This document shows positions 2,518-9,937 of a stretch of DNA of 64,000 bases, piece by piece. Each line of letters opens with the position of its first letter. Position 1 is the first letter of the stretch. This stretch comes from Fluviicola sp. (GTDB lineage Bacteria; Bacteroidota; Bacteroidia; Flavobacteriales_D; Crocinitomicaceae): the NCBI GenBank assembly GCA_002734065.2, contig NVXU02000023.1, forward strand, positions 62,001 to 126,000, in the 5' to 3' direction. The position numbers and the translations under genes were made by a program. Below the pieces are notes generated by a model. It saw only the letters and a program-made list of their open reading frames with translations. It was not told the origin of the DNA and made no database searches.

Positions 2518-3609
2518 ATGGCACAACCTTTTTATATTCTTGTATTGATTTTAGGTATTTCAAGCTGTAGTAGCCCTGAGACTAATGAAAATTTAGATAC
2601 TAACCCTGATAATGAGCCTAATATTTCCGTTACAATACAAACCAATTTTTTGAAAAGTGGTGCTCATGATATAACCTATTTTTCATTCACAAAGAATGTA
2701 GAAGGCTCGTTCTCTTCCTTTATCTATTCGAGGGATTCTTCGCTTACTTCAGAATCTATTATGTGGAGAACCTCACTCAGTCCAAAATCTTTAGAGTATT
2801 ATCCTTTTACTTTGACCGCACAAATCAATAGCTCAAACGACACATTGTTTTTAAATGAAGCCGAGCAGAAAGAACACGGATTCATAGGTCAATACAAATA
2901 CATATTAAAAGATTCATTTGATCTTAAACTGGAAAACGACACATTCATAATATACAGCTACTCTAGGATTGACGAAAATATACGATGGGATGAAACCTTA
3001 TATTTTTCGAACGAGTATGGATTGCTTTTTACTCACTATAACTACTTTCAAAACAATAAAGAAACAATACAGCATGGCAATATTGAAGTAAATCAATTAA
3101 GGGAATTAATCTCTCAATTAAAAACTAACCATAAAAAAGGACTAGGAGCTGATGCTAATTACTCCGACTCAATTGTAGATAGTTTGATCTATGACTTTAA
3201 TAGCAATGGAATTCCAGACCAAATTACAATTTATGGAGATAACCATATTCCATTTGGTGAGGGACCGGAATCCGCTAGAACCATGGTTCTAGAAATAGAC
3301 GGAAAGCAATTATGGGAAAAGGATTCTATTGTATTGTGTACACAGTGTGGCGGTGCATATGGAGACCCTTTTGCTCAGATACTTTTCGAAAATGACACGC
3401 TTAAGATGTATCACTATGGTGGCAGTGGGTGGAGATGGGGATTCGATCAGTTTTTTATTTTTGAAAAAAACTTAGTCAAATTTAAACTTGTCCTCGAAAG
3501 GAAGTTTACTTTTCATTCTGGAGACCCCGAAGAGACTTATGAAGAAAGAATGACTTCAATCGATAAGCTTGAAGGTGTATATTTAAGTGAAATCAATAAT
3601 TATCATTGA
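2518..3609 (+). CDS. hypothetical lipoprotein
   Basis: 363 residues with a lipoprotein signal: a short hydrophobic stretch then ISSC, so Cys17 would be the lipidated residue. The mature protein starts with a low-complexity Asn/Asp/Glu segment typical of surface linkers. Near residue 226 a DFNSNGIPDQ stretch resembles the Ca-binding loops of VCBS/FG-GAP-type repeats, but there is one copy only. No family recognised. It is the only gene between leader copies A and B, so it looks like an independently acquired single-gene block. Confidence 0.7.
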   Translation: MAQPFYILVLILGISSCSSPETNENLDTNPDNEPNISVTIQTNFLKSGAHDITYFSFTKNVEGSFSSFIYSRDSSLTSESIMWRTSLSPKSLEYYPFTLTAQINSSNDTLFLNEAEQKEHGFIGQYKYILKDSFDLKLENDTFIIYSYSRIDENIRWDETLYFSNEYGLLFTHYNYFQNNKETIQHGNIEVNQLRELISQLKTNHKKGLGADANYSDSIVDSLIYDFNSNGIPDQITIYGDNHIPFGEGPESARTMVLEIDGKQLWEKDSIVLCTQCGGAYGDPFAQILFENDTLKMYHYGGSGWRWGFDQFFIFEKNLVKFKLVLERKFTFHSGDPEETYEERMTSIDKLEGVYLSEINNYH

Positions 3610-3654
3610 TACGTATATCTATATCCCTCCGCTGAACTGAATTTACAACCCCGC

Positions 3655-3758
3655 GCGCCATGTACGCAATTAAAAGAGCCATGGAAATAGAACCTAATTT
3701 GAAAGTGACGGTGCCAGAAGTTGTGGAGGAAGATGTGATTGAGGGATTGTTTGGGTAG
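3655..3758 (+). pseudogene. duplicated hutU 3' end (34 codons plus stop)
   Basis: Aligns without gaps to hutU 2323-2426 at a constant offset of 1332. There are only five differences in 104 bp, and all five are synonymous (GCG/GCA, CCA/CCT, CCG/CCA, GGG/GGA, CTG/TTG). It has no start and no upstream hutU, so it is not a gene. The lack of amino-acid changes means this fragment was evolving as part of a working urocanase until recently, for example as a donor allele or a displaced original 3' end. Confidence 0.92.
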
Positions 3759-3822
3759 AATTTTGTATATTTAGGGGACTAATCGTTTAATGGAATATAT
3801 TCGGTCGTTATATGCAAGCTGA
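3744..3822 (+). repeat. hutU-tip leader repeat, copy B
   Basis: Continues from the hutU fragment: TTTGGGTAG, then TATATTTA (3766-3773), AGGGGA, an AATCG/CGGTC imperfect hairpin around TTTAATGGAATATATT, and a terminal CGTTATATGCAAGC (3807-3820). The terminal motif recurs in a related form at the second array (28262-28275 on the opposite strand). Confidence 0.8.
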
Positions 3823-3893
3823 AAAAACATTGATGAATTATAACAAGTTGACCTTCAAAAAAGCTTTATGAGAAACATTATTTTATTGAACTA

Positions 3894-4394
3894 ATGGAGT
3901 CAAAATTCAAATATTTGGTTGTTACGGCATCAATAATATCCCTTGTTCTTTTGTCAATTATATATCTTGCATTTTCGATTGGATACATTTATTTCGAAGA
4001 TTTTGCACCCTTACCAATCACCGTCCTTATTGGTGTTGGTTTCCCATTAATATTCTTTTATCTTCTGAGAGAAATAAGAACTAAGATTTTTCGATTAACA
4101 ATTGAAAAAAACCAAATATGGATTAAACCAATCTTACATTTAAAAAAGAACTATTCAATAGAATTAAATGATAACATTCGTATTCATCAAACACACATAG
4201 ATGTCGAAGCATATCCATATGTCTGTTGTGTCCTCATAATTTATGATAATGATCAAATTGTATTGAGAATAAAGGAAGTTTATTATGAAAATTTTGAAGA
4301 AATAAAACAACGATTGATTCAAATTCAAGGAGAAATTGAATATCAAAAGACGAACTCTAACGAACGATTGAAGACCCCAACAAGCTCACAATAA
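3894..4394 (+). CDS. hypothetical membrane protein
   Basis: 166 residues. Two hydrophobic helices (about 8-30 and 38-60) are followed by a soluble, strand-rich domain with alternating charged and hydrophobic residues (LTIEKNQIWIKP..., IRIHQTHIDVEAYP). This two-helix plus C-terminal beta layout resembles small bacterial membrane proteins with a PH-like domain, but no diagnostic motif is visible. It lies directly after leader copy B and is strongly A+T-rich, like the other cargo genes. Confidence 0.65.
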   Translation: MESKFKYLVVTASIISLVLLSIIYLAFSIGYIYFEDFAPLPITVLIGVGFPLIFFYLLREIRTKIFRLTIEKNQIWIKPILHLKKNYSIELNDNIRIHQTHIDVEAYPYVCCVLIIYDNDQIVLRIKEVYYENFEEIKQRLIQIQGEIEYQKTNSNERLKTPTSSQ

Positions 4395-4421
4395 GAGCAC
4401 CTCATCAATACAGGCCTACAA

Positions 4422-4443
4422 GTGTAAACAAATCTGTTTACAC
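4422..4443. promoter_or_regulatory. palindromic operator-like site GTGTAAACA-N4-TGTTTACAC
   Basis: Perfect 9-bp inverted repeat (4422-4430 and 4435-4443) about 120 bp ahead of the gene at 4564. The flanking sequence aligns with the operator-like region before the HTH gene at 7891: both have TAAACAA, TCTGTTTA, then CAA and TTGTTTAT at the same spacing. Binding by the HTH protein at 7891 is an inference. Confidence 0.6.
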
Positions 4444-4563
4444 AAGGTTGTTTATTCTCTTTCGTAACACATTCACCATTTCACATTAAAATGTGATTTA
4501 TATCATGCTTAGACGTATAAAATTTATCCAACTTTGTCGTTTATATTCAAGAATTTGAAACTC

Positions 4564-6390
4564 ATGAAAAACGAACATTCATTCCACATACCAGTAATGG
4601 GAATAGGATTTACTGTTGACACAGCACTAAAAGTAGCTCACCTTGGCATCAACTCTGTGCTGTCACTTATCGGAGATAAACTGCATGAAAAATTACGAAA
4701 ATATTACTGCGAAAAATACGGACTCGCGTATGAAGAAATTACAGACAAAATAGACGACTACAAAGCAAAAAGGACAACGGCCTATTTGAATCTTTTGGAT
4801 GATTTAACGGCGAAAAAATTTGAGAGTTATAAAAATTCAACCGCAGAATACAAGACTGAAATTGAAGCATGCATTGATTTATTGCCAAATAGTGCACAAT
4901 TGAAAAAGGAATTCCGTCGGCTGATGGAAGATTCTTCTAGTAGTGACCAATGTAAAAAATGGGTAGAAGAAAATCTACAACTCGGTAGCATCGATGTGAA
5001 TATTATGACCAAGCTAGATAGAGAAAACTTTGTGAAAGGGGAGAAATTGCCTCCAGAACACAACGATGGGCATGTCGCAATGCGCGCCTATGCAAACAGC
5101 ACTCTCGATTCTTCGCTTGTGCTTTCAGCAGGGTTAAATCCTAGATTGTTTACCTATATGGAGCAGTTCGAGGACTTCTACCCGGATTCAAATGGGTACA
5201 TTAAAAAGAAAATCATTTTAAAAGTGAGTGACTATCGATCGGCGCTCGTGCAAGGAAAATTCTTAGCAAAAAAAGGATTGTGGATCTCTGAGTACAGAGT
5301 CGAATCAGGACTAAACTGCGGAGGACACGCATTCGCAACCGATGGTTTTTTAATGGGGCCAATTCTATCAGAATTTAAAAACAACAAAAAAGAGCTTTTT
5401 GATTCTGTTTTTGAGGTGTTGAAGACCGCTTTAGACGCTAAAAATAAGGCTGTATTCGAAGAGTTATTGCCCTTTAAATTTACTGCACAAGGAGGAGTTG
5501 GCACGTCAGAAGAACATCAATTTTTGCTCGATGAGTATCAATTAGACTCCGTTGGGTGGGGAAGCCCTTTTCTTTTAGTTCCCGAAGCAGTCAATGTAGA
5601 TGACGAAACGATAACTAGGTTGATTGAAGCGAAAGAAGAAGATTTCTATCTGAGTAGAATATCACCACTTGGTGTTCCGTTCAACAGCCTTAGAGATACT
5701 TCCAAAGAAAGAGAAAGGAAAGAAAAAATTGCCAAAGGAAAACCAGGGAGCCCTTGTATAGAGGGAAGCTTGGCTTTGTTTAACAAAGAATTTACAGACG
5801 ACCCTATTTGTACAGCTTCTCGTCAATATCAAAAGCTGAAAATTGAAGAACTGAAAAAAGATAACCTATCGGTTGAGGAATATCAAGAGAAATATGAGAA
5901 AATTGTCGAAAAAACATGTCTTTGCACGGGTCTCGTGAATCCAGTTTTAATTGTGAACGAGCTCAAAACACCTACTGGAAATGGAGGTGTGTCAATCTGT
6001 CCAGGTCCAAACATGTTTTATTTCAAAAAAGTAATGACGATGAGTGAAATTACCAGCCATATTTACGGCAAAAAAAGCATTCCTTTTTCAGTAGAACGTC
6101 CTCACATGTTTGTCAAAGAACTATATGCTTACATTAAATATTTAAAGGGTTCTATAGAAGATACCAGAAAATCAGTGAACAAGAAAGGAAAAAACCGTCT
6201 GCTTAAATTTTCTGAAAATCTATCGAGCGGAATCGAGTATTATCAGTCACTTTTTAATGCCAACTTGAAGACCTTTTATGATACAAAAGCTGTTATTTTA
6301 GCTGATTTACAAGCAAGCATTGAAAAGTTGAATACAATGCACCAAGAAATTGAGGCATTGTCCATAGAACTACCCATTCAAAAAATCTAA
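4564..6390 (+). CDS. conserved protein, probable TIM-barrel (FMN-type) domain with Cys-rich C-terminal half
   Basis: 608 residues from ATG 4564; an in-frame ATG 30 bp upstream is less likely because the conserved-looking part begins HIPVMGIGFTVDT. QGGVGTSEEH (about 309-318) and DSVGWGSPFLLVPEA (about 327-341) look like the phosphate-binding end of an FMN-dependent TIM barrel. Five cysteines follow in the second half (about 398, 416, 452, 454, 479), enough for a metal or Fe-S site. The tail is a long helical region. Exact function unknown. It is followed after 29 bp by a PlsC-type acyltransferase, so the two probably act together, possibly in lipid chemistry. Confidence 0.6.
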   Translation: MKNEHSFHIPVMGIGFTVDTALKVAHLGINSVLSLIGDKLHEKLRKYYCEKYGLAYEEITDKIDDYKAKRTTAYLNLLDDLTAKKFESYKNSTAEYKTEIEACIDLLPNSAQLKKEFRRLMEDSSSSDQCKKWVEENLQLGSIDVNIMTKLDRENFVKGEKLPPEHNDGHVAMRAYANSTLDSSLVLSAGLNPRLFTYMEQFEDFYPDSNGYIKKKIILKVSDYRSALVQGKFLAKKGLWISEYRVESGLNCGGHAFATDGFLMGPILSEFKNNKKELFDSVFEVLKTALDAKNKAVFEELLPFKFTAQGGVGTSEEHQFLLDEYQLDSVGWGSPFLLVPEAVNVDDETITRLIEAKEEDFYLSRISPLGVPFNSLRDTSKERERKEKIAKGKPGSPCIEGSLALFNKEFTDDPICTASRQYQKLKIEELKKDNLSVEEYQEKYEKIVEKTCLCTGLVNPVLIVNELKTPTGNGGVSICPGPNMFYFKKVMTMSEITSHIYGKKSIPFSVERPHMFVKELYAYIKYLKGSIEDTRKSVNKKGKNRLLKFSENLSSGIEYYQSLFNANLKTFYDTKAVILADLQASIEKLNTMHQEIEALSIELPIQKI

Positions 6391-6419
6391 TTCTACGCAC
6401 TAAAAAACGATTTGCCTTT

Positions 6420-7196
6420 ATGAAAGTTGTATTAAGTTTCTTCTCATTTGTTCTATCCAGGAGGTATAAAATAAAGGTAAAAGGGGAGCATCTTTTGCAT
6501 GAATCTGGGGCGAAATTACTTCTGCAGAATCATCAATCTCATATTGACCCACAATTGTTGGGCGTATTTGTTGCTCAACGAAGCGGCTTGGTTCCCGTTA
6601 TTTCGGAGAAATTTTTACGAATACCGGTCATCGGAGCTGTTTTGAGGTCACATAACGCCGTTTCGGTGAGTGATTTGAAGCATGGCAATCGGGATCCGAA
6701 TGTTCTCAAAAACATGATTTCAAAAATAATGGAGGCACTAGAAAAAGGAAAAAGTGTGCTCATTGCTCCTTCGGGGAATATCGCTCAAGGACCTGTTGAA
6801 CGAATTAAAAATAAGCAGAGTGCGCATGCATTGGTTTCCAACTTGCCAGATGGCGTTAAGGTCATTGGAGTAAGGGTGAATGGACTATGGGGAAGCATGT
6901 GGTCCGTTGCATGGATGGGTAAAAAGCCAGATTTTTTGAAGACCTTTCTCAAAGGTATTTTTTACATTCTCGCCAATTTGATCTTTTTCATGCCAAAGCG
7001 AGAGATTACTTTTGAGTTTGTAGATATTACGGAAGAAGCAAAATTACAGTCCAAGTCAGAACGGAAGGTTTTTAATCATTATTTGGAAGAATTTTACAAT
7101 ATTAATGGTCCAGAAGAGGTGACTTATCTCAAGCACTTCTTCTACGCACCAAAAATAAAAAGAACTTACCCCGCTAATTTAGTGAAGGACAAATAA
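6420..7196 (+). CDS. 1-acyl-glycerol-3-phosphate acyltransferase-like (PlsC family)
   Basis: 258 residues. The acyltransferase block I motif H-x4-D is NHQSHIDPQ (His38, Asp43). A later PSGNIAQGP (117-125) takes the place of the usual PEGT-type block III. A hydrophobic segment near 178-195 would anchor it in the inner membrane. The family transfers acyl groups from ACP or CoA to lysophospholipids or related acceptors. The unusual block III and the partner gene at 4564 suggest a specialised acceptor rather than routine phospholipid synthesis. Part of the block between leader copies B and C. Confidence 0.8.
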   Translation: MKVVLSFFSFVLSRRYKIKVKGEHLLHESGAKLLLQNHQSHIDPQLLGVFVAQRSGLVPVISEKFLRIPVIGAVLRSHNAVSVSDLKHGNRDPNVLKNMISKIMEALEKGKSVLIAPSGNIAQGPVERIKNKQSAHALVSNLPDGVKVIGVRVNGLWGSMWSVAWMGKKPDFLKTFLKGIFYILANLIFFMPKREITFEFVDITEEAKLQSKSERKVFNHYLEEFYNINGPEEVTYLKHFFYAPKIKRTYPANLVKDK

Positions 7197-7283
7197 CTGT
7201 TTGTTCAATTTAGAAATCATATTCTTCACTTCGTTTAATAGATTCAAACGTTTCTGTAGCTCATTGAAAAAGACCAAAGTAAT

Positions 7284-7350
7284 AGGTTGTTTGAGTAGAA
7301 TTTTATATTTTTAGGGGAATTTAGCCGTTTAGGGTTAAGTATTCGGTTGA
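7284..7350 (+). repeat. hutU-tip leader repeat, copy C (most diverged)
   Basis: Retains TTGTTTGAGTAG (hutU tip, now with a Gly-to-Glu codon change), an A/T-rich TATATTTTTAGGGGA, and the AGCCG/CGGTT hairpin around a 16-nt loop. It precedes the DUF2007-like gene at 7381 by 30 bp. It is less like A, B and D than they are like each other. Confidence 0.7.
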
Positions 7351-7380
7351 TATTCGTTAATACCAACTCAAACCCACTCA

Positions 7381-7806
7381 ATGGAATTAATAACACTTAA
7401 AGTATTTAACACAGCAATTGAAGCCTATATTCTAAAAAACAAACTAGAAGGTGAAGGAATTGTGTGTTATATTTTAGATGAAAACATAGTTACCCTTAAC
7501 CCATTACTGAATTTTGCTGTTGGTGGGGTTAGACTTCAGATAAACAAAGTAGATCTAGATAAAGCTAAAGACATCATAGCTGAAATAGACGATCAACCAT
7601 ACACGAATGATGAAGATGCTATTATTGAATGTCCAAAGTGTAGTTCACATAGCCTTTATTCAGATTTCAAATCAATAAAAGATCCGAAAGGTTTTTTAGC
7701 GATGGTACTTGCTTTCTTGACTACCACTTTTCCGATTTATTCAAAGTCTGTTTATAAATGTAAAGATTGCAATACTGAATTCTCCCTCGCTAAGCTGGAT
7801 TTGTAA
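7381..7806 (+). CDS. DUF2007 domain protein with C-terminal zinc ribbon
   Basis: 141 residues. The N-terminal half (LKVFNTAIEAYILKNKLEGEGI... GGVRLQINKVDLDKAKDII) matches the DUF2007 'putative signal transducing protein' fold, a ferredoxin-like domain common in Bacteroidota. The C-terminal part has CPKC (about 84-87) and CKDC (about 126-129) separated by a hydrophobic stretch, giving a zinc-ribbon-like pair. Role unknown; such proteins are thought to be small regulatory or binding modules. Its last codons form one copy of a 19-bp direct repeat found again at 8163-8181. Confidence 0.75.
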   Translation: MELITLKVFNTAIEAYILKNKLEGEGIVCYILDENIVTLNPLLNFAVGGVRLQINKVDLDKAKDIIAEIDDQPYTNDEDAIIECPKCSSHSLYSDFKSIKDPKGFLAMVLAFLTTTFPIYSKSVYKCKDCNTEFSLAKLDL

Positions 7807-7845
7807 TCCTGCTATTAGCACTGAAGATCATTTTATACAATTCAT

Positions 7846-7885
7846 AAATATAAACAATTCTGTTTAAACAAAATTGTTTATATTT
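7846..7885. promoter_or_regulatory. nested palindromic operator before the HTH gene
   Basis: AAATATAAACAATT (7846-7859) and AATTGTTTATATTT (7872-7885) form a perfect 14-bp inverted repeat. The spacer contains the self-complementary TGTTTAAACA (7861-7870). The site ends 5 bp before the start codon at 7891, a normal place for autoregulation by an antitoxin-type HTH protein. A shortened version is at 4422-4443. Confidence 0.7.
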
Positions 7886-7890
7886 ACATC

Positions 7891-8169
7891 ATGATGCAAT
7901 ATCTATCCATATTAAAGGGAATTCAACCCGGTAAAGTCGTTGAATATGAGCTTTCTAGAAGAAAACTCTCTAAAGGTAGATTTGCCATTTCGATTAACGA
8001 ATATCCCCAGACTTTAGGGGCCATTATTAACGGTCATCGTGGAATGAACACGAAATTGTCATTAAAAATTGAAAAAGAATTTGGATGGGGAGAAGGGTTT
8101 TTAATGACACTGAAGGTGTATTATGACATTCGAAAAGAAAAAGAGCAACAAGGCAAGCAACTTCGCTGA
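7891..8169 (+). CDS. HTH antitoxin-like protein (HigA/AbiEi-partner type), orphan
   Basis: 92 residues starting MMQYLSILKGIQPGKVVEYE. The pattern LKGIxPGxxxxxELxxRxLSKGxFAxSxxEYPQTLxxIxxGxRxMNTxLSLKIE is that of Bacteroidota HTH antitoxins usually encoded just before an AbiEii-like nucleotidyltransferase toxin. Here no toxin follows: the next 190 bp hold a direct repeat and leader copy D. It may be a solitary immunity or regulatory gene, or the remnant of a lost toxin-antitoxin pair. A large palindrome immediately upstream suggests autorepression. Confidence 0.75.
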   Translation: MMQYLSILKGIQPGKVVEYELSRRKLSKGRFAISINEYPQTLGAIINGHRGMNTKLSLKIEKEFGWGEGFLMTLKVYYDIRKEKEQQGKQLR

Positions 8170-8215
8170 GCTGGATTTGTACCACGGCAAAAACATCAAT
8201 TTTAGTTGCTCAATC

Positions 8216-8300
8216 GTTATTGAGGGCTTGTTTGGGTAGAATTTTGTATATTTAGGGGAGCTTAGCCGTTTAATGGAATATATTCGGTTGTTGGCGGGTG
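8216..8300 (+). repeat. hutU-tip leader repeat, copy D
   Basis: Begins with eight codons equal to the hutU end (VIEGLFG stop), with three differences from hutU, all synonymous. Then TATATTTA (8247-8254), AGGGGAG, an AGCCG/CGGTT hairpin around TTTAATGGAATATATT, and TTGTTGGCGG. Copies B and D are nearly identical from the stop codon to the hairpin loop. It precedes the small gene at 8365. Confidence 0.8.
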
Positions 8301-8364
8301 ATTAGGACAAAGGTAATTTATCGACAAGTTTTACGTTTAAATTAATAATACTTAACTTTGCAAT

Positions 8365-8574
8365 ATGGAAAATGACTCAAAAAATAAACAAGAAGTAGAA
8401 ATTAAAGATTTTACAACTGAATATAATGAAGTTATTAACTCTTCTGAACAATCTGTTGTAATCGAAACACAATGGACGAAAGATGGCGACTTTTTCCAAA
8501 AGCTTTCAATGTATGACAATTCCTATGTTCAAGTTGAAACTTTAGGAAGTACTACGTTGATAAAAGCTTTATAA
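8365..8574 (+). CDS. small hypothetical protein upstream of SDH protease
   Basis: 69 residues, acidic N-terminal part and short strands afterwards (SVVIETQWTKDGDFF, YVQVETLGSTTLIKAL). No family recognised. Its stop and the next start are separated by one base, so the two genes are translationally coupled and probably work as a pair, for example as substrate, adaptor or inhibitor of the protease. Confidence 0.65.
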   Translation: MENDSKNKQEVEIKDFTTEYNEVINSSEQSVVIETQWTKDGDFFQKLSMYDNSYVQVETLGSTTLIKAL

Positions 8575-8575
8575 T

Positions 8576-9487
8576 ATGCCAAATTGGAATGAAGTTATTC
8601 TTGAGATACAACAAGAACAAAACAATAACCCTAAATTAAATGCCCTTGACACAGTAAGAAGGAAATACCTAAAATTGGTTTCTGAAATTTCTGGGCGAAA
8701 CACCATAGCATATTACTCTGGTTGGCTTCAAAAGCCACAAGCCGCAGGAACAGCAGTTGGAGATAAAGACAAGTCAGGATTTATGTTAACAATTAATAAG
8801 TTAGACAGAAGTAAAGGGCTTGATTTAATACTACATACTCCAGGAGGTGATATTGCTGCAACAGAATCCCTAGTTGACTACCTTTATTCAATGTACGATA
8901 AAGATATTCGTGTTATTGTCCCTCAAATTTCAATGTCAGCAGGAACTATGATTGCTCTTTCCTCAAAAGAGATTGTAATGGGGAAACATTCTAATTTGGG
9001 CCCTATTGACCCGCAAATGGGCGGTTTAGCCTGCCAAGCCGTTCTAAATGAATTTGAACAAGCGAAAGAGGATATAAAACAAAACCCTCAATCAGCTGCA
9101 CTATGGCAAGTTATCATTAGCAAATATCACCCAACTTTTCTAGGTGCCTGTAAACAGGCTATTGAATGGTCTGAAAAAATGGTGTTTGAATGGCTTGAAA
9201 ACAATATGTGCGCAGGAGACACAGAAAAAGTAAAAAAAATAGTAGGTACATTCTCAAATCACACTGAACAAAAATCTCACGCAAGACATATTTCTAAAAA
9301 AGAATGTAAAACAATAGGTCTAAATATTACTGACTTGGAAGATAATCAAGATTTCCAAGATGCTGTATTAACTACTCATCATGCCTTTATGCACACTTTT
9401 TCAAATACACATTGTGTTAAAATTATTGAAAATCATGATGGAATCGCATATATAGAACAAGCGGTTCAACAATCATCAGTAAAATAA
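8576..9487 (+). CDS. SDH-family Clp-fold serine protease
   Basis: 303 residues of the SDH_protease (ClpP/SppA crotonase-like fold) family. Visible parts: HTPGGD (87-92) forming the oxyanion turn, MSAGTM with predicted nucleophile Ser121, and NLGPIDPQ (140-147), which carries the conserved Asp. No signal peptide, so it is cytosolic or attached through a partner. Members usually cleave membrane or small protein substrates. It is coupled to the small gene at 8365 and lies in the last block of the leader-tagged array. A defence role is possible but not shown. Confidence 0.85.
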   Translation: MPNWNEVILEIQQEQNNNPKLNALDTVRRKYLKLVSEISGRNTIAYYSGWLQKPQAAGTAVGDKDKSGFMLTINKLDRSKGLDLILHTPGGDIAATESLVDYLYSMYDKDIRVIVPQISMSAGTMIALSSKEIVMGKHSNLGPIDPQMGGLACQAVLNEFEQAKEDIKQNPQSAALWQVIISKYHPTFLGACKQAIEWSEKMVFEWLENNMCAGDTEKVKKIVGTFSNHTEQKSHARHISKKECKTIGLNITDLEDNQDFQDAVLTTHHAFMHTFSNTHCVKIIENHDGIAYIEQAVQQSSVK

Positions 9488-9516
9488 AAAAAGCCCTTTC
9501 CGAAGAAAAGGCTTTT
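9488..9516. terminator. bidirectional rho-independent terminator
   Basis: AAAAAAGCC, an 11- to 12-nt loop, then AAAGGCTTTT. A/T runs on both sides allow termination of the plus-strand protease gene and of the minus-strand gene ending at 9539. Confidence 0.75.
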
Positions 9517-9538
9517 AATCTAACTATTGGTAAAATTT

Positions 9539-9937
9539 CTACTTCTGCGTTGCAGCATATTTATCATACTGCTCTGTCGTTAAAATAGTAGAAAGAACAC
9601 GCATTCTGTCTTTCTGGTTACCTTCAATTTGCTGTTTCTTTTGCTTTTCAGTCATTGTGCTGTTGTTCACTACAGCTAATTTGTTCTGTACCTTCAAATT
9701 CAATTCACCAACTTTCGTTTTTTGTTCTGCCGATAACCCTAACAATTTCACCATTTTATTGGTTTGCTTTTTCGCTATTAACTCTGGAGAATTTACTTGC
9801 TTGCTATCTTTTGTAGATAACGATGATTGCGCCTTAAAATCTTCAGACACTCTCACTTTTGTGGCATCATTTTGAGCCATCAAGGCAGTTGAACTAATAA
9901 GTGCAACTCCTAAAATAATTGTTTTTAAATTTTTCAT
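9539..9937 (-). CDS. Spy/CpxP-like small periplasmic protein
   Basis: 132 residues with a cleavable signal peptide (MKNLKTIILGVALISSTALMAQ, cut after MAQ or at ALMA). The mature part is all-helical and charged, with LGLSAEQKTKV and STILTTEQYDKY, two LTxxQ-like motifs typical of Spy/CpxP-type chaperone or stress-sensing proteins and of the related Bacteroidota DUF4890 group. Expected in the periplasm. Divergent from the LRR lipoprotein gene at 10049. Confidence 0.65.
   Translation of the reverse strand: MKNLKTIILGVALISSTALMAQNDATKVRVSEDFKAQSSLSTKDSKQVNSPELIAKKQTNKMVKLLGLSAEQKTKVGELNLKVQNKLAVVNNSTMTEKQKKQQIEGNQKDRMRVLSTILTTEQYDKYAATQK

Follow-up and report, generated by a model that had tools for sequence, protein, structure and literature searches.

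Orphan antitoxins are common and have been viewed as debris, as regulators or as anti-addiction genes (PMC7354431), and surveys that count many of them cannot separate the debris from the regulators. In Pseudomonas aeruginosa, the antitoxin HigA represses mvfR, and its binding to the amrZ and exsA promoters has been reported (PMC8230891, PMC11826091). The AbiE type IV systems, e.g. AbiEi/AbiEii of Streptococcus agalactiae and Rv2827c of Mycobacterium tuberculosis, have in common with the relatives of the gene described here a toxin of family PF08843 and a two-domain antitoxin. HigA-like/DUF6922 antitoxins linked to AbiEii toxins are found in Bacteroidota, for example on the Microscilla plasmid pSD15 (WP_010925665 with WP_169605351), and a full-text literature search found no paper that names DUF6922.

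Here, we describe an orphan antitoxin gene within a 64-kb stretch of a Fluviicola genome (the whole stretch analysed is referred to as the window), together with a palindromic double operator that precedes both this gene and an unrelated operon. The encoded protein is 30-56% identical to the Bacteroidota AbiEii-linked antitoxins in the helix-turn-helix (HTH) part and shares with them the operator in front of the gene and, for about half of them, the position of the -7 box, but it differs from them by the absence of a C-terminal domain and of AbiEii, and by the extra operator before another operon. P. aeruginosa HigA is similar in its fold and in being a small DNA-binding antitoxin with an additional site outside its own module, whereas its toxin is present and its promoter effect was shown by experiment, the case in the window being known from sequence. 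AbiE promoters carry several inverted repeats, as is the case here (PMC7319586), yet AbiEi is a winged helix-turn-helix protein with 23-bp repeats, as opposed to the HigA fold and 16-bp palindromes of the present locus. The locus is a clean further example of antitoxins at unrelated promoters rather than a new kind of system. Because its operator is well defined from relatives and the double site is found at only one extra genomic place, the question of debris or regulator narrows down to a single protein and a single additional promoter.

A truncated antitoxin without a toxin

Profile searches, comparison with relatives and a structural model identify the 92-aa product of the HTH gene (7891-8169, + strand) as an orphan HigA-like DNA-binding domain, specifically the N-terminal half of an antitoxin of the AbiEii-linked type, which supports and refines its assignment as an orphan antitoxin in an earlier note on this DNA. 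The protein has the sequence and fold of a HigA-type helix-turn-helix protein: TIGR02607 matched with E=1.3e-7, although the 31.3 bits are below the curated cut-off of 47.7, a profile matched HigA structures at 1.8e-11, and the high-confidence AlphaFold2 model (pLDDT 91.2) had HigA structures as best Foldseek matches. A structure of P. aeruginosa HigA with a pa2440 promoter is available in the PDB (7csw). For comparison, 23 homologous loci were gathered across the family, the order and public genomes, and one more was taken from the Microscilla plasmid. The HTH residues are conserved in the 92-aa protein; those relatives that were read completely have about 130-176 aa and a C-terminal domain, which was DUF6922 (PF21956) in all three checked (L016, L019, L025), whereas the window protein ends in the linker, before DUF6922. 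An AbiEii nucleotidyltransferase toxin is encoded downstream in most relatives, and those without a listed toxin represent a contig end, a miss by the simple motif scan or possibly a true absence.

As the earlier note had stated, only the second of the two operator sites is followed by an HTH gene and a toxin is seen at neither. The neighbours of the HTH gene encode a DUF2007 protein on one side and a 69-aa protein followed by an SDH-type peptidase on the other, and include no HigB-type RNase toxin. Antitoxin and toxin profiles detected no HTH, DUF6922 or toxin remnant, including AbiEii, in any frame of 3301-9600 apart from the known gene. Elsewhere in the genome there is no full-length relative of the antitoxin, and a HigA relative on contig C54 proved to be a different gene (32% identical). 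A role of the orphan in neutralising a toxin encoded elsewhere was rejected, as the sole AbiEii match of the genome, on contig C6, already has its own, different kind of partner, and as the C-terminal domain that neutralisation is expected to require is missing from the orphan.

A 19-bp repeat points to the origin of the truncation. The DUF2007 gene in front of the HTH gene has the first copy (TCGCTRAGCTGGATTTGTA, 7787-7805, + strand) as its 3' end, while the second (8163-8181, + strand), which marks the junction, contains the codon at which the HTH gene stops; these are the only two copies with fewer than three mismatches in the genome. Since the stop codon lies in copy 2 and copy 1 is the DUF2007 3' end, the antitoxin was probably truncated by a rearrangement at this repeat, in which the junction at 8163-8181 likely took away its C-terminal domain.

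The operator of the antitoxin family and its two occurrences in the window

The earlier note had pointed out a common spacing of TAAACAA, TCTGTTTA and TTGTTTAT before the HTH gene and before the gene at 4564. This holds: an ungapped alignment of 4418-4455 with 7844-7881 gives 31/38 identities, with unrelated flanking DNA on either side. The palindrome that it had placed at 4422-4443 is indeed present, but is just the first of two overlapping palindromes, the full site being 4425-4454. Both sites, to which no strand is assigned, share a tandem structure of two overlapping TAAACA-N4-TGTTTA palindromes with starts 14 bp apart, recovered by pattern and matrix searches alike. Site 1 (4425-4454) consists of 4425-4440 (TAAACAAATCTGTTTA) and 4439-4454 (TACACAAGGTTGTTTA), and site 2 (7851-7880), at a distance of 3426 bp, of 7851-7866 (TAAACAATTCTGTTTA) and 7865-7880 (TAAACAAAATTGTTTA); among the four palindromes only 4439-4454 deviates from the consensus, by one mismatch.

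Inspection of the relatives revealed that TAAACA-N4-TGTTTA with at most two mismatches occurs within 120 bp upstream of all 23 (16 exact), compared with 0.69 expected in shuffles; the further relative on the Microscilla plasmid has TAAACAATATTGTTTA. For an additional palindrome the preferred position is 14 bp upstream, as is clear in four relatives (L018, L019, L067 and L069). We consider TAAACA-N4-TGTTTA, in some cases in tandem at 14 bp, a comparatively supported operator for the DUF6922/AbiEii antitoxins of Bacteroidota. The upstream operators of the 23 relatives, with the window sites excluded, were made into a matrix that independently recovered the same operator at both places, as the earlier note had held: the top four scores in the 64-kb window were 24.2 (4425-4440), 21.3 (7865-7880), 17.4 (7851-7866) and 10.8 (4439-4454), with the fifth-best at 5.9. 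Since the matrix derived from relatives ranks it at the top, site 1 is an intact operator of the antitoxin family and not a chance palindrome.

Whole-genome pattern searches (3.49 Mb, 62 contigs, estimated 99.98% complete), which complement the matrix run on the 64-kb window, located TAAACAANTCTGTTTANACAANNTTGTTTA with up to three mismatches at sites 1 and 2 only. For a looser double-palindrome pattern, about 2e-5 exact matches are expected per genome, and across 240 family genomes (this one and 239 others) the exact double palindrome was restricted to the same two sites. The genome contains eight single palindromes with one mismatch or none, against about four expected by chance, and four of the eight lie within sites 1 and 2. 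On the basis of these counts and expectations both sites are real and specific, and the outcome that the earlier note had named as speaking against its proposal, a site widespread in the genome, is ruled out by the searches for double and single palindromes. Doublets with two mismatches in three other family genomes were attributed to chance, reversed-pattern controls giving about as many. The pattern was absent from the viral contigs searched, and the site from the plasmids searched.

The differences between the two sites are unevenly distributed, affecting 1/26 core positions and 6/12 other positions (p=0.002, from a test on two sequences with seven differences). The lower change in the core fits constraint on both sites, although a recent deletion scar could give the same picture. 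At the same place in the first palindrome both sites carry an unusual C and read TCTG, as opposed to TTTG in most relatives.

In Flavobacterium, the -7 box of sigma-A has been mapped as TAnnTTTG (PMC9723704). In the HTH gene this box (TATATTTA, 7879-7886, + strand) starts with the last TA of the operator, an arrangement shared, with at most one mismatch to TAnnTTTG, by about half of the genes, that of the window included, while in another group the box lies 18 bp downstream. The inverted-repeat operator therefore overlaps the gene's own promoter and, because site 2 overlaps the -7 box, the HTH protein would be expected to repress itself.

The operon downstream of site 1

The first gene behind site 1 (4564-6390, + strand) encodes a 608-aa FMN-barrel enzyme that, by predicted structure, resembles PfaD, FabK and nitronate monooxygenase. 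The product has no Pfam match; its AlphaFold2 model (pLDDT 80.8) had PfaD, the enoyl reductase DfnA and FabK as best Foldseek matches, all with low overall TM-scores, so that the assignment concerns the FMN-barrel fold and not the function. It is followed by a gene for a 258-aa PlsC-type acyltransferase (6420-7196, + strand; PF01553, E=1.9e-12). Homologues of the 4564 gene were found in 18 other family genomes, in addition to a second copy on contig C5; one homologue (L052) also has a possible acyltransferase gene directly behind it.

None of the 18 homologues with readable upstream DNA carries the operator, which rules it out as an old trait of the gene family. A CRP/FNR-like site is, by comparison, common: exact TGATNNNNATCA occurs upstream of 10/19 family members (window included; 0.135 expected), and with at most one mismatch upstream of 15/19 (3.4 expected), with a TAnnTTTG-like box following at a constant distance in several members. 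The window copy of this site is TGATTTATATCA (4494-4505, + strand). The putative -7 box of the 4564 promoter, CAACTTTG (4529-4536, + strand), is the best match to the Bacteroidota box TAnnTTTG in 4380-4570 and, set at -12 to -5 as in Flavobacterium (PMC9723704), would place the start near 4541. Relative to this presumed start, the CRP/FNR-like site is centred at -41.5 and site 1 at about -101.5. A centre at -41.5 is where CRP/FNR proteins act as class II activators. Since the homologues lack the operator and most of them have the CRP/FNR-like site, the double operator appears to be a later addition, about 100 bp ahead of a promoter that is older. In its own right, this family of 600-aa FMN-barrel proteins in Bacteroidota (L036-L053), for which there is no Pfam model, can be described as having a conserved CRP/FNR-like site at the class II position.

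Control in trans or remnant of a lost module

We favour a reading in which the orphan represses itself, binds at the 4564/6420 operon as well and modulates this operon in trans, to which we assign a probability of roughly 0.55. The HTH gene would be the remnant of a two-gene module consisting of a HigA-like HTH + DUF6922 antitoxin and an AbiEii toxin, in which a rearrangement at the 19-bp repeat would have severed the antitoxin in the linker past its DNA-binding domain, the toxin being lost. The remaining 92-residue protein is expected to dimerise still and to occupy its own double operator, and self-repression at the near-leaderless HTH promoter would act through site 2. The protein very likely also binds site 1, about 100 bp upstream of the presumed 4564/6420 start, and could have become a regulator of the operon, site 1 having presumably joined a promoter whose older control is the CRP/FNR-like site at -41.5. 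Occupancy of site 1 could lower or otherwise modulate CRP/FNR-dependent transcription of 4564/6420.

Several points count against such control. Simple repressors do not usually bind as far upstream as a centre at about -101.5, beyond the CRP/FNR-like site; as 0/18 homologues carry the operator, comparative support for its link to the 4564 gene does not extend beyond this genome; and autoregulation of S. agalactiae AbiE needed the full-length antitoxin (PMC7319586), the DNA-binding domain of that antitoxin being of another type than the window HTH.

The earlier note had left the choice between control in trans and a scar of a lost second module, and the data support it in part, with control in trans somewhat favoured by the consensus-grade site, the 14-bp register, the spared core and the lack of a remnant beside it. 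The main rival, which we consider less likely, is that site 1 is such a scar, left by a recent deletion that ended just past the operator and took a second antitoxin and its toxin, in which case the surviving HTH protein may bind site 1 without consequence. In agreement with a deletion end, the likeness to site 2 stops at 4455, directly past the operator, and where about half of the relatives have a -7 box after their operator, site 1 has a degenerate one (TATTCTCT). The conserved part of the 4564 promoter does not include the operator, and the upstream flanks are unrelated, as for two independent modules. However, the profile searches of 3301-9600 found no trace of such a module, site 1 shows no decay in its first palindrome, which outscores both palindromes of the HTH gene's own operator in the matrix, and the unusual C is shared by the two sites.

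That the HTH protein bridges the two tandem operators into a repression loop is very improbable. Such a loop is formed by lambda CI, which bridges OL and OR, and two pairs of dimer sites 3.4 kb apart resemble the paired operators required for looping, but the HTH protein is devoid of any C-terminal domain able to form higher oligomers. It is hardly credible, finally, that 4422-4443 is a mere terminator of the upstream gene (3894-4394) with a coincidental operator match: a scan flags it 28 bp past the stop codon (nine pairs, of which three are G-C, and a weak T tail) and its RNA fold is somewhat better than that of shuffled sequences (z -2.1), but the stem is A+T rich, the tail is poor, and the 4439-4454 palindrome, the 14-bp register, the 38-bp similarity and the matrix rank would be left unexplained. 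The palindrome may have a double role as terminator and operator.

Returning to control in trans, we propose tentatively, at slightly less than even odds, that a type IV-like antitoxin has been cut to a bare DNA-binding domain and now serves as a dedicated local regulator through the second consensus double operator. If true, this would be an antitoxin caught turning into an ordinary transcription factor, for an operon of an FMN enzyme and an acyltransferase.

Repeats around the locus

The 19-bp repeats flank the operator and the HTH gene as a 376-bp unit, again at a gene 3' end. The 3' end of hutU (urocanase) and/or the 45 bp beyond it is present in four copies (2323-2477, 3655-3809, 7276-7349 and 8216-8290), the first two of which share 122 bp at 96%, and these copies divide small downstream gene groups like an inserted cassette array. 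A relative (G137) with 86% DNA identity in the 3' part of hutU has no such array. Weaker hutU-associated copies (78%) lie at or near the ends of contigs C59, C50 and C14 (L010 72-130, L011 1-58 and L012 1501-1558), which suggests a repeat family that breaks assembly. Before hutU, at 201-319, a 33-bp inverted repeat is found that is 97% complementary and rich in CCCCCT, with arms 53 bp apart.
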